From positions 1-61,141 of the forward strand of contig JACPVI010000030.1 of assembly GCA_016191815.1 (NCBI GenBank): a DNA stretch of 61,141 nt. Direction: 5' to 3'. Below are positions 18,935-23,846 of this stretch, piece after piece (position 1 is the stretch's first letter; every line of letters begins with the position of its first letter). Source of the DNA: Myxococcales bacterium. GTDB lineage: Bacteria; Myxococcota; Myxococcia; Myxococcales; Myxococcaceae. Both the position numbers and the translations under genes were made by a program. The notes beneath the pieces were generated by a model. The model searched no databases and was not told the origin of the DNA. It saw nothing but the letters and a program-made list of their open reading frames with translations.

Positions 18935-19021
18935 GGAGGAGTGGCCGAGCGGCTTAAGGCAGCGGTCTTGAAAACCGCCGAGGGTGAGAGCCCTCCGTAG
19001 GTTCGAATCCTACCTCCTCCG
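18935..19021 (+). tRNA. tRNA-Ser(UGA)
   Basis: The acceptor arm GGAGGAG pairs with CTCCTCC, the anticodon loop is CTTGAAA with anticodon TGA, a long variable arm is present, and the T loop is GTTCGAATC. The 3' CCA is not fully encoded. It is the first of four serine tRNAs in this cluster. Confidence 0.95.
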
Positions 19022-19046
19022 CAGTTCTTTGACAGGTTTCAACGAT

Positions 19047-19137
19047 GGAGAGATGGCCGAGCGGCTGAAGGCGCAGGTTTGCTAAACCTGTATACCTCTA
19101 AAGGGTATCGGGGGTTCGAATCCCCCTCTCTCCGCCA
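19047..19137 (+). tRNA. tRNA-Ser(GCU)
   Basis: The acceptor GGAGAGA pairs with TCTCTCC, the anticodon is GCT in TTGCTAA, a long variable arm with TATACC/GGGTAT stem is present, the T loop is GTTCGAATC, and a 3' CCA is encoded. It reads AGC/AGU serine codons. Confidence 0.95.
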
Positions 19138-19159
19138 CGCTTTGCAACCTTGGGGGAAA

Positions 19160-19233
19160 GCGCCCTTAGCTCAGCTGGATAGAGCGTCGGACTACGAATC
19201 CGAAGGCCAGAGGTTCAAATCCTCTAGGGCGCG
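19160..19233 (+). tRNA. tRNA-Arg(ACG)
   Basis: The acceptor GCGCCCT pairs with AGGGCGC, the anticodon loop is ACTACGAA with anticodon ACG, and the T loop is GTTCAAATC. In bacteria A34 of this tRNA is deaminated to inosine by TadA; tadA begins 10 bases downstream. Confidence 0.95.
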
Positions 19234-19243
19234 CTGATTCCCC

Positions 19244-19723
19244 ATGGGCGAGAGGCCGGAAGAAGAGCTCTTCATGGAGCGGGCGCTGGGTTTGGCGCGT
19301 GAGGCCGCCCGGCTGGGAGAAGTGCCGGTGGGGGCGGTCGCGGTGAAGGGAGGGGTGGTGGTGGGCGAGGGCTACAACCGGCGCGAGGTGGATCGAGATC
19401 CATTCGCGCACGCCGAGCTTTTGGCGCTGTCGGCGGCGGCGAAGTCTTTGGGGGCCTGGCGGCTTTCGGGAGTGACGCTGTATTCGACCCTGGAGCCGTG
19501 CGCGATGTGCGCGGGGGCGATGGTGCAGGGGAGGCTGACGCGGCTAGTGTTCGGCGCGGCTGATCCGAAGGCCGGGGCGGCGGGCAGCTTGTACAACCTG
19601 CTGGAGGATCCGCGGCACAACCACCGGGTGGAGCTGACCGGAGGGGTTTTGGCCGAGGCGAGCGGCGCGTTGCTCAAGGAGTTCTTCCGGGCTTTGCGGT
19701 CGCCGGAAGTGACAACTGAATAG
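19244..19723 (+). CDS. tadA: tRNA-specific adenosine deaminase
   Basis: The enzyme converts A34 to inosine in tRNA-Arg(ACG), whose gene ends 10 bases upstream. HAELLAL carries the zinc His and the proton-shuttle Glu, and PCAMCAGAMV the two zinc cysteines. The length, 159 residues, is normal. Two starts are possible: ATG 19244, with no Shine-Dalgarno outside the tRNA, and ATG 19274, preceded by GGAAGAAGAG at good spacing and closer to the usual N-terminus. The stop lies 2 bases before tRNA-Ser(CGA), so the gene sits inside the tRNA operon. Confidence 0.95.
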   Translation: MGERPEEELFMERALGLAREAARLGEVPVGAVAVKGGVVVGEGYNRREVDRDPFAHAELLALSAAAKSLGAWRLSGVTLYSTLEPCAMCAGAMVQGRLTRLVFGAADPKAGAAGSLYNLLEDPRHNHRVELTGGVLAEASGALLKEFFRALRSPEVTTE

Positions 19724-19725
19724 CG

Positions 19726-19812
19726 GGAGAGCTGGCCGAGTGGTCGAAGGCACCTGACTCGAAATCAGGCGTACCGGGAACGGTACCGCAGGTTCGAATC
19801 CTGCGCTCTCCG
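19726..19812 (+). tRNA. tRNA-Ser(CGA)
   Basis: The acceptor GGAGAGC pairs with GCTCTCC, the anticodon is CGA in ACTCGAAA, the variable arm is long, and the T loop is GTTCGAATC. It begins 2 bases after the tadA stop, so processing must separate it from the tadA message. Confidence 0.95.
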
Positions 19813-19830
19813 CATGGAGTGGCACCCCAA

Positions 19831-19918
19831 GGAGAGGTGGCCGAGTGGTCTAAGGCGCACGCCTGGAGAGCGTGTATACCTCAAAAGGGTATCGTGGGTT
19901 CGAATCCCACCCTCTCCG
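19831..19918 (+). tRNA. tRNA-Ser(GGA)
   Basis: The acceptor GGAGAGG pairs with CCTCTCC, the anticodon is GGA in CTGGAGA, the variable arm is long, and the T loop is GTTCGAATC. With the UGA, GCU and CGA species it completes the set needed to read all six serine codons. Confidence 0.95.
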
Positions 19919-19949
19919 CAGCAACTTGCGGTGAGCCGGGGTGAGAAGA

Positions 19950-22216: not shown

Positions 22217-23401
22217 ATGTCCTACATAGTGCTCGCGCGCAAGTGGCGCCCCCAGAAGTTCACCGACATCACCGGCCAGGAGCACGTGGTCCGGACGATC
22301 GAGAACGCGATCAAGCTGGGCCGGGTGGCCCACGCCTACCTCTTCTGCGGCCCGCGCGGAGTGGGGAAGACCTCCGCCGCCCGCCTGCTCGCCAAGGCCC
22401 TCAACTGCGAGAAGGGCCCCACCGCCGACCCCTGCGGAGCCTGCCAGCCCTGCACCGAGATCGCCGCCGGCACCTCGGTGGACGTGGCGGAGATCGACGG
22501 CGCCTCCAACAACGGCGTCGAGAACGTGCGCGAGCTCCGCGAGAACGCCAAGTACCTCCCCCAGCGCGACCGCCACCGGATCTACATCATCGACGAGGTG
22601 CACATGCTCTCCGGCGCGGCCTTCAACGCGCTGCTCAAGACCCTCGAAGAGCCGCCCGGGCACGTGAAGTTCATCTTCGCCACCACCGAGCCCCACAAGC
22701 TGCCCGACACCATCCTCTCGCGCTGCCAGCGGCACAACTTCCGCCGGATCCCGGTGAGCCAGATGCTCGCCCGCCTCAAGGAGATCTGCGCCGCCGAGCA
22801 ACTGGAGATCTCCGACCGCTCCTTCTCGCTTCTGATCCGGCAGTCCGAAGGGGGCATGCGCGACGCCCTCTCCCTGCTCGATCAGATCCTCTCCGCCTGC
22901 GGGAAGGCCCCTTCCGACGAGGCGGTGGCCGAGGCCCTGGGCGCGGTGGACCGCACCGTGGTGCAGTCCTTCACCGAGGCGCTGGTCCGCCGCGACGCCA
23001 AATCGCTCCTCGCCCAGGTGGAGCAGGCCTTCGACCGCGGCCTCGAGCTCAGACGCCTGGCCGAGGAGATCGCCTATCAGCTCCGCCACGTCTTCGTCGC
23101 CCATGCGCTCGGCGAAGCGCCCTCCGAGCTGGCCGAGAGCGAGCGGCAAGCGGTCGCCGCCCTCGCCAAGCAGGCCGACCCTTCGCAGCTCGCGCGCCTG
23201 TTCGACGTGGTGCACGGGGCCGTCTGGGAGGTGTCCCGCGCCGCCCAGCCCCGGCTGGCGCTGGAGATGGCCCTCCTCAAGGCCGTTCAGCTCGCCCCGG
23301 CTGCCTCCATCCCCGACTTGGTGGCGCGGGTGGAGCGCCTGGCGAGCGGCCTTGGCGGAGCGCCAGGAGGTCGCTCCTCCCAGCCCAGCTTTCGAGCCTG
23401 A
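22217..23401 (+). CDS. dnaX: DNA polymerase III subunit gamma (DnaX domains I-III)
   Basis: This is the clamp-loader ATPase. The ATG begins MSYIVLARKWRPQKF, the standard DnaX start. Walker A GPRGVGKTSA is at about 45-54, zinc cysteines at 64, 73, 76 and 79, Walker B YIIDEVHML near 126, and the SRC sensor in ILSRCQRHNF near 172. The frame ends after 394 residues, just past domain III, which is the extent of the gamma form. The tau-like remainder continues in the +1 frame. The upstream in-frame extension to 22016 is repeat-derived and was not used. ybaB and recR follow, the usual replication/repair order. Confidence 0.95.
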   Translation: MSYIVLARKWRPQKFTDITGQEHVVRTIENAIKLGRVAHAYLFCGPRGVGKTSAARLLAKALNCEKGPTADPCGACQPCTEIAAGTSVDVAEIDGASNNGVENVRELRENAKYLPQRDRHRIYIIDEVHMLSGAAFNALLKTLEEPPGHVKFIFATTEPHKLPDTILSRCQRHNFRRIPVSQMLARLKEICAAEQLEISDRSFSLLIRQSEGGMRDALSLLDQILSACGKAPSDEAVAEALGAVDRTVVQSFTEALVRRDAKSLLAQVEQAFDRGLELRRLAEEIAYQLRHVFVAHALGEAPSELAESERQAVAALAKQADPSQLARLFDVVHGAVWEVSRAAQPRLALEMALLKAVQLAPAASIPDLVARVERLASGLGGAPGGRSSQPSFRA

Positions 23402-23846
23402 AGCCCGCGACCACCCCGACCTGCCTCCTCGCGAAATCTGGCGCGCCGCGGTGGAGGCGGTGCGCGAGGCCTCCCCGCGGCACGCCAAGTCGCTCGCCTT
23501 CGGAAGGCTGATCGCTCTCCGCCCGGGGGAGGTGGCCCTCTCCTTCCCGAAGGACGCGGCCTTTCACCGCGCCACCGTCACCGCGAGCGGCCGTGCCCTG
23601 CTCGAGAAAACCCTCTCGGAGCACTTCGGCCAACCGACCCGCATCGTCGAGGAGGAGGGCGAAGCAGAGCCCAGCCTGGCCGAGGAGGAGGCGCGCGACC
23701 GAAAAGCCCGCGAGCGCCAGGCGGAGGCCGAGGTGCGCGCCCACCCCGCGGTGCGCTCGGCGCTGCGGATCCTCGGCGGGGAGATCGAGTACGTCCAGGT
23801 GCTCGAGGAGAAGGCCCCCGAGGAGGAGCCGGACGAGCGAAGCTGA
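23391..23846 (+). CDS. dnaX: DnaX tau C-terminal extension in +1 frame
   Basis: Downstream of the gamma stop the +1 frame encodes 151 residues without an initiation signal of its own. They comprise a Pro-rich linker, then REIWRAAVEAVREASPRH, LAFGRLIALRPGEVALSFPK, LEKTLSEHFGQPTRI and an acidic tail, the layout of the tau region that binds the polymerase alpha subunit. Reading through would give a protein of about 542 residues. A possible slip is TTT-C at 23390-23393 (Phe to Phe) with CGA next and the stop TGA two codons on. A real programmed shift, a mutation and a base-calling error are all compatible with the sequence alone. Confidence 0.7.
   Translation, partial: FEPEARDHPDLPPREIWRAAVEAVREASPRHAKSLAFGRLIALRPGEVALSFPKDAAFHRATVTASGRALLEKTLSEHFGQPTRIVEEEGEAEPSLAEEEARDRKARERQAEAEVRAHPAVRSALRILGGEIEYVQVLEEKAPEEEPDERS

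Follow-up and report, generated by a model that had tools for sequence, protein, structure and literature searches.

The dnaX locus

The window, that is the whole stretch of 61,141 nucleotides that was analysed, carries a split dnaX at positions 22217-23846. dnaX is the gene for the clamp loader of DNA replication, and the family of the window, the Myxococcaceae, comprises predatory soil bacteria. The features of the locus were as follows.

22217..23401, + strand: dnaX frame 0, coding for a gamma-like protein of 394 aa (ATG at 22217, stop TGA at 23399-23401; identified by Pfam and TIGR02397)
23357..23377, + strand: RNA hairpin GGAGCG-CC-AGGA-GG-U-CGCUCC, 8 bp with a bulged U (from fold, covariation and conservation)
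23365..23371, + strand: AGGAGGT, resembling a Shine-Dalgarno sequence, which spans the hairpin loop and upper stem at 18 nt 5' of TTT
23378..23389, + strand: 12-nt spacer from hairpin to slip codon, invariant in length, with 12 nt in L154 and L158 too, and variable in sequence except for the last C
23389..23395, + strand: putative slip site C_TTT_CGA (consensus C_TTT_CGC), where tRNA-Phe(GAA) is proposed to move from TTT to TTC
23391..23846, + strand: tau C-terminal extension in the +1 frame, 151 codons from TTC at 23391 to the stop TGA at 23844-23846, with no start codon of its own
23399..23401, + strand: stop codon TGA of frame 0, at which gamma would end, two codons past TTT

The frame-0 part scored over the Pfam cut-off for PF13177, PF22608 and PF12169 (DNA_pol3_delta2, DNAX lid and DNA_pol3_gamma3, respectively), and gave 438 bits against TIGR02397. 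The ATPase, the lid and domain III are all complete within frame 0; PF12169 (domain III) ends at residue 361, leaving 33 residues before the frame-0 stop. An earlier note, made from the letters of the window, had placed the break at the gamma/tau boundary after a first frame of 394 residues, and the domain limits confirm it.

In the +1 frame no stop occurs between a point 563 nt 5' of the frame-0 TGA and the TGA at 23844-23846. The extension is the tau C-terminal domain, aligning with positions 447-577 of 578 in PRK14965 (E 5e-20), while the Pfam tau domains PF20964 and PF12362 scored slightly under their cut-offs. Joining the frames at TTT-C (23390-23393) yields a product of 542 aa, in agreement with the size of about 542 residues given earlier. 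This fused product scored 670.8 bits against PRK14965, the full-length DnaX model, and passed its curated cut-off of 670; gamma alone (607.5 bits) and the extension alone (71.7 bits) were both below it. Between close pairs, substitutions in the +1 extension fell 435/331/1052 at codon positions 1/2/3, a pattern from which the extension is seen to evolve as protein. dnaX is present in a single copy in the window's assembly, the other clamp-loader family match being one distant paralogue on contig C48.

Conservation of the split in the Myxococcaceae

Relatives were searched with the frame-0 protein and without use of the motif, which gave an unbiased sample of 22 family loci from 22 genera. In all 22 no more than a few codons separate TTT-C from the frame-0 stop, and tau is encoded in +1. 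A degenerate pattern of the site was also run on 96 family genomes, with the reversed pattern as a control. The pattern had exactly one match in 89 of the 96 genomes and the reversed control had none. In G019, which brings the count to 90, the hairpin is combined with TTT-CTG. In four of the remaining six (G049, G001, G006 and G105) the contig stops within or beside dnaX, and two (G045 and G102) are assemblies without both dnaX and the neighbouring gene, and the family therefore holds no counterexample. The split was found in 90 of 90 family genomes with the site assembled, and it is far beyond chance. The relatives were inspected for an uninterrupted frame, as had been proposed, and the opposite was seen, with the split, TTT-C and a nearby stop everywhere in the family.

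The 88 distinct loci counted below were picked by the motif, so invariance inside this set is partly by construction; the unbiased evidence is the 22-locus protein sample together with the lack of counterexamples. Among 63 complete loci, one (L160) has a second frame break deeper in the tau linker. Another complete-looking locus (L137) ends early.

That a single base was misread or misassembled, or that a local mutation has made a pseudogene, is favoured by the state of the window's genome, a draft of 89 contigs. On the other side, 90 genomes from 24 genera, single-contig ones among them, share the break to the base, the downstream frame is under protein-level selection and dnaX is single copy. 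We consider such an error or mutation vanishingly improbable.

In the drafts of G001, G006, G105 and G049 contig ends recur within dnaX or right next to it, close to the tau linker; as a result, genomes with completeness scores of up to 100% have a truncated dnaX or none. The tau linker is variable and proline-rich, and in most family members (for example L004, L007 and L018) it contains a conserved cysteine motif, EGCASGECLP, which is absent from the short linker of the window.

The putative slip site

The consensus of the site over the 88 loci was GGRGCG-NNN-GGRGGT-CGCYCC (where NNN is YMN), 12 nt, C-TTT-C, usually GC, NNC and a stop. TTT-C was present in 88 of 88 loci; elsewhere in the same ORFs TTT accounted for 21 of 818 Phe codons (2.6%). 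The next codon was CGC in 83 loci and CGN in 87. The frame-0 stop was TGA in 85 loci and TAG in 3, and was separated from TTT by two codons in 75 loci, three in 11 and seven in 2. The nearest upstream +1 stop is 41 nt 5' of TTT in the tightest genomes. Within the interval so allowed, TTT is the only codon whose P-site tRNA re-pairs in +1 in every genome, re-pairing being defined as retention of the first two codon positions after the +1 move. The anticodon of tRNA-Phe was GAA only (30 best tRNA loci). A slip of tRNA-Phe at TTT-C, suggested before from the window, is supported by these counts.

Conserved codons were tabulated over 253 columns. The site fixes GCG, GGT, CGC and TCC, which are four- or six-fold degenerate, as well as the disfavoured TTT; invariant columns outside the site were GC-ending preferred codons, nearly all of them for two- or three-fold degenerate amino acids.

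The earlier note had also described CGA as the codon after TTT, with TGA two codons on. The two-codon distance holds in most loci, but CGA is peculiar to the window's genome. Since the conserved A-site codon is CGC, an argument from a rare codon fails. Among the Arg codons of the dnaX ORFs studied CGC is the most frequent, no rare-codon pause was evident, and tRNA-Arg(ACG), the reader of CGC, is encoded in the window; as +1 shifting usually needs a pause, this counts against the frameshift reading.

Four tRNA-Ser genes and the tRNA-Arg(ACG) gene lie at 18935-19919 of the window, approximately 2-3 kb 5' of dnaX on the same strand. In G000, contig C72 carries at about 160.4-164.3 kb (L226, L229 and L231) a dense array of some 20 compact tRNA genes of many specificities, with a second tRNA-Phe. 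The array is phage- or mobile-element-like.

The upstream hairpin

The 21-nt element upstream of the slip site folds as GGAGCGCC-AGGA-GG-U-CGCUCC with a minimum free energy of -12.4 kcal/mol (z -3.7). Variation is confined to two purine positions (R), one pyrimidine position (Y) and three positions of the loop or upper stem; the rest are invariant, and GGRGGT was present in 88 of 88 loci. Standard pairs filled 99.3% of 576 pair cells. The outer-stem pair occurs in A-U, G-U and G-C states, with a compensatory double change from A-U to G-C in four genera, and covariation within the family is limited to this one of the eight stem pairs. An inner hairpin, GGAG-GUCG-CUCC, was rejected; it is broken by exactly the covarying changes. 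When the region was recoded synonymously with the ORFs' own codon usage, an equally stable fold was obtained in 4.8% of draws.

A covariance model of the hairpin gave dnaX as the top match in every covered family genome, at 40-77 bits and with one strong match each. Other matches in the family genomes, and matches in genomes beyond the family, did not exceed about 32 bits. The length from domain III to the hairpin varies from 23 to 38 residues, while the distance from the hairpin to TTT is constant. No structure was evident in the 60 nt 3' of the site (mean z +0.68), and a search of Rfam with the site gave no match. The 3' end of 16S rRNA was searched for in the window's draft genome and was not found. 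The frameshift first suggested from the window has stood, although the conserved upstream hairpin with its Shine-Dalgarno-like loop at 12 nt, which is the strongest evidence for it, had been missed.

These features bear on two other ways in which tau could be made. RNA polymerase slippage of the Thermus dnaX type would bring some of the mRNA back into frame, and slippage has been described for dnaX of other bacteria (PMC3711429, PMC5009743). Here, however, the longest homopolymer at the site is three T, and the invariant features are phased with the codons and lie at a fixed distance upstream. Slippage of the polymerase was judged a very improbable source of the split.

Alternatively, the C-terminal part of tau would be made separately, by re-initiation or by internal initiation from AGGAGGT. 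A strong Shine-Dalgarno-like sequence does lie close upstream, but it is partly paired in the hairpin, and no ATG, GTG or TTG in the +1 frame was present within 30 nt on either side of TTT in any of the 88 loci, which bears out the lack of an own start stated from the window alone. A fragment without the ATPase would not assemble into a clamp loader, which also counts against separate initiation. We hold it to be highly unlikely, if slightly less so than polymerase slippage. A +1 shift of the ribosome at TTT-C is preferred to both.

Sister families

One genome of the sister family f3 (G143) has two dnaX sequences of the +1 type, both of them from a single metagenome bin with 6% contamination. 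They have a different 8-bp stem, TGGCCGCC/GGCGGCCA in one and CGGCCGCC/GGCGGCCG in the other, and the two stems differ from each other by one compensatory change (U-A vs C-G). Both have the loop GAGGGAG, a 12-nt spacer and TTT CGC NCC TGA, with tau in +1. In f3, GGGAGG lies at the same distance from TTT as GGRGGT in the Myxococcaceae.

These sequences bear on a question within the frameshift explanation, namely which element stimulates the shift, if this is real: the Shine-Dalgarno-like loop through base pairing to 16S rRNA, with an incidental hairpin, or the hairpin, with an incidental loop. The invariance of GGRGGT and its counterpart in f3 speak for stimulation by pairing. On the other side, the stem is conserved besides the loop, and f3 has a different stem in the same place. 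The 18-nt gap from the Shine-Dalgarno-like sequence to the slip codon moreover exceeds that in prfB or E. coli dnaX and counts against pairing as the stimulator. An incidental role for one of the two elements is unlikely, though it deserves some weight.

In the other f3 genomes (L024, L026, L027 and L155) tau is in the -1 frame at C_CCT_TTY (C_CCT_TTT or C_CCT_TTC), and the shift predicted for these loci of the neighbouring family is in the opposite direction. The C8 run of L024 might instead be an indel or a slippage site. The single genome of family f2 (G024, locus L025) has an uninterrupted tau frame, with TTT-CAA-GTA-G at the homologous spot (codons 392-394). There a shift to +1 would meet TAG two codons on, and the shifted product would be the one of gamma size, which mirrors the arrangement in the window. 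In a protein tree f3 falls outside f1+f2, and the Myxococcaceae (f1) form one clade; support was moderate (91/86 for the f1 branch and 82/80 for the f1+f2 branch). From this placement of f3, +1 recoding was either ancestral and later modified or arose more than once.

Comparison with known systems

To our knowledge few ordinary bacterial genes have a conserved programmed +1 frameshift, and prfB is the textbook case. In prfB (CUU_UGA), as proposed for the Myxococcaceae site, one P-site tRNA slips to +1 and a Shine-Dalgarno-like element lies upstream. It differs in that its A site holds a stop codon, its spacing is very short and it is autoregulatory, whereas the A site in the Myxococcaceae holds a sense codon and two to seven sense codons separate UUU from the stop.

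E. coli dnaX (A_AAA_AAG) likewise yields gamma and tau from one gene, with a frameshift near their boundary and an upstream Shine-Dalgarno-like element. In E. coli a -1 shift leads to gamma and the hairpin is 3'; in the Myxococcaceae a +1 shift would lead to tau and the hairpin is 5'. The window's dnaX has no 3' stem-loop and, as noted previously, no A-AAA-AAG heptamer.

The known forms of dnaX recoding are the -1 shift of E. coli, transcriptional slippage in Thermus and a reversed two-ORF type (PMC3711429, PMC5009743); in the accessible text Myxococcus is mentioned by neither paper, and myxobacteria are not mentioned in PMC3711429. The two-ORF dnaX genes of PMC3711429 (Antonov et al. 2013) resemble that of the window in that frame 0 stops after gamma and tau needs recoding. 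Those 17 genes, though, are all -1 at the DNA level, most of them with poly-A runs, and transcriptional slippage was proposed for them.

The slip codon itself has precedents. UUU_CGU is a +1 site proven by mass spectrometry in influenza A (PMC3498833), and UUU_CGN is an inferred +1 site in plant amalgaviruses (PMC5052127). The influenza A PA-X and amalgavirus sites share with the Myxococcaceae the slip codon, the CGN that follows and the direction (PMC3498833, PMC5052127); they are, however, in eukaryotic viruses, while the Myxococcaceae site belongs to a gene on the bacterial chromosome and has a hairpin 5' of it. The PA-X site has no evident stimulators (PMC5009743).

Upstream hairpins stimulate +1 shifting in yeast at a CUUCGGC site (PMC3639245). 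They do so as well in a 70S system of E. coli, in which an internal Shine-Dalgarno duplex acts likewise (PMC6321510). These refolding hairpins are 5' stimulators of +1 shifting on 70S and 80S ribosomes, as proposed for the hairpin of the Myxococcaceae. They are engineered or derived from a viral -1 attenuator and act best within a few nt, and a related -1 attenuation effect dropped as the spacing rose from 2 to 5 nt. The Myxococcaceae hairpin, in contrast, is natural, phylogenetically fixed and 12 nt away, with a Shine-Dalgarno-like loop. A literature search covering sources outside subscription found no report of myxobacterial dnaX frameshifting, of a +1 dnaX or of this hairpin signal. The signal would be a new form of programmed +1 ribosomal frameshifting in a gene already known as recoded.

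Proposed mechanism and significance

The conservation, geometry and uniqueness of the signal, the coding potential of both frames and the single copy of dnaX were observed directly. On this basis Myxococcaceae dnaX is very probably a programmed +1 ribosomal frameshift gene, in which the shift would give tau and normal termination gamma. The shift in cells, the production of both proteins, the efficiency of shifting and the hairpin's mode of action are what we infer from the genomes.

Ribosomes remaining in frame 0 would stop at TGA and release gamma (approximately 394-407 aa, with ATPase domains I-III). A fraction would slip at C_UUU_CGN, where the peptidyl-tRNA-Phe (GAA) that reads UUU by wobble would match UUC perfectly. 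Translation in +1 would then add the linker and the C-terminal polymerase-binding domain, giving tau. The likely stimulator is the hairpin, the 3' base of which lies exactly 12 nt 5' of UUU. It would be melted by the ribosome and would refold at the mRNA exit, at about the end of the ribosome footprint, as UUU enters the P site. Refolding may pull the mRNA in the 5' direction (equal to +1) or block its return, and the Shine-Dalgarno-like loop may add a pause through pairing with 16S rRNA. Since the published effect falls with spacing and the spacing here is 12 nt, a different mechanistic detail is called for.

A broader claim, to which we give even chances, is that of a natural, phylogenetically fixed class of +1 signals. 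In these a hairpin with a Shine-Dalgarno-like loop, kept at exactly 12 nt on the 5' side of the slip codon, would draw the mRNA back one base on refolding at the ribosome exit. Under the same claim, the recoding of this essential replication gene would have changed both its direction and its polarity between neighbouring families: tau would be made by a +1 shift in some and by a -1 shift at C_CCT_TTY in others, and gamma perhaps by a +1 shift.

The finding would bring to the few conserved +1 cases a gene essential for replication, with a likely stimulator in the form of a fixed 5' hairpin and with the UUU_CGN site known from eukaryotic viruses. The approximately 90 natural variants and the related genomes with other solutions form a test set for the way in which structures behind the ribosome shift the reading frame. 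Gene finders will truncate DnaX in Myxococcaceae genomes. The idea of an independent way of making two DnaX forms, raised in the earlier note, is supported with the correction that tau, not gamma, would be the shifted product. Another independent route to both gamma and tau suggests that there is selection for both forms in the Myxococcaceae.
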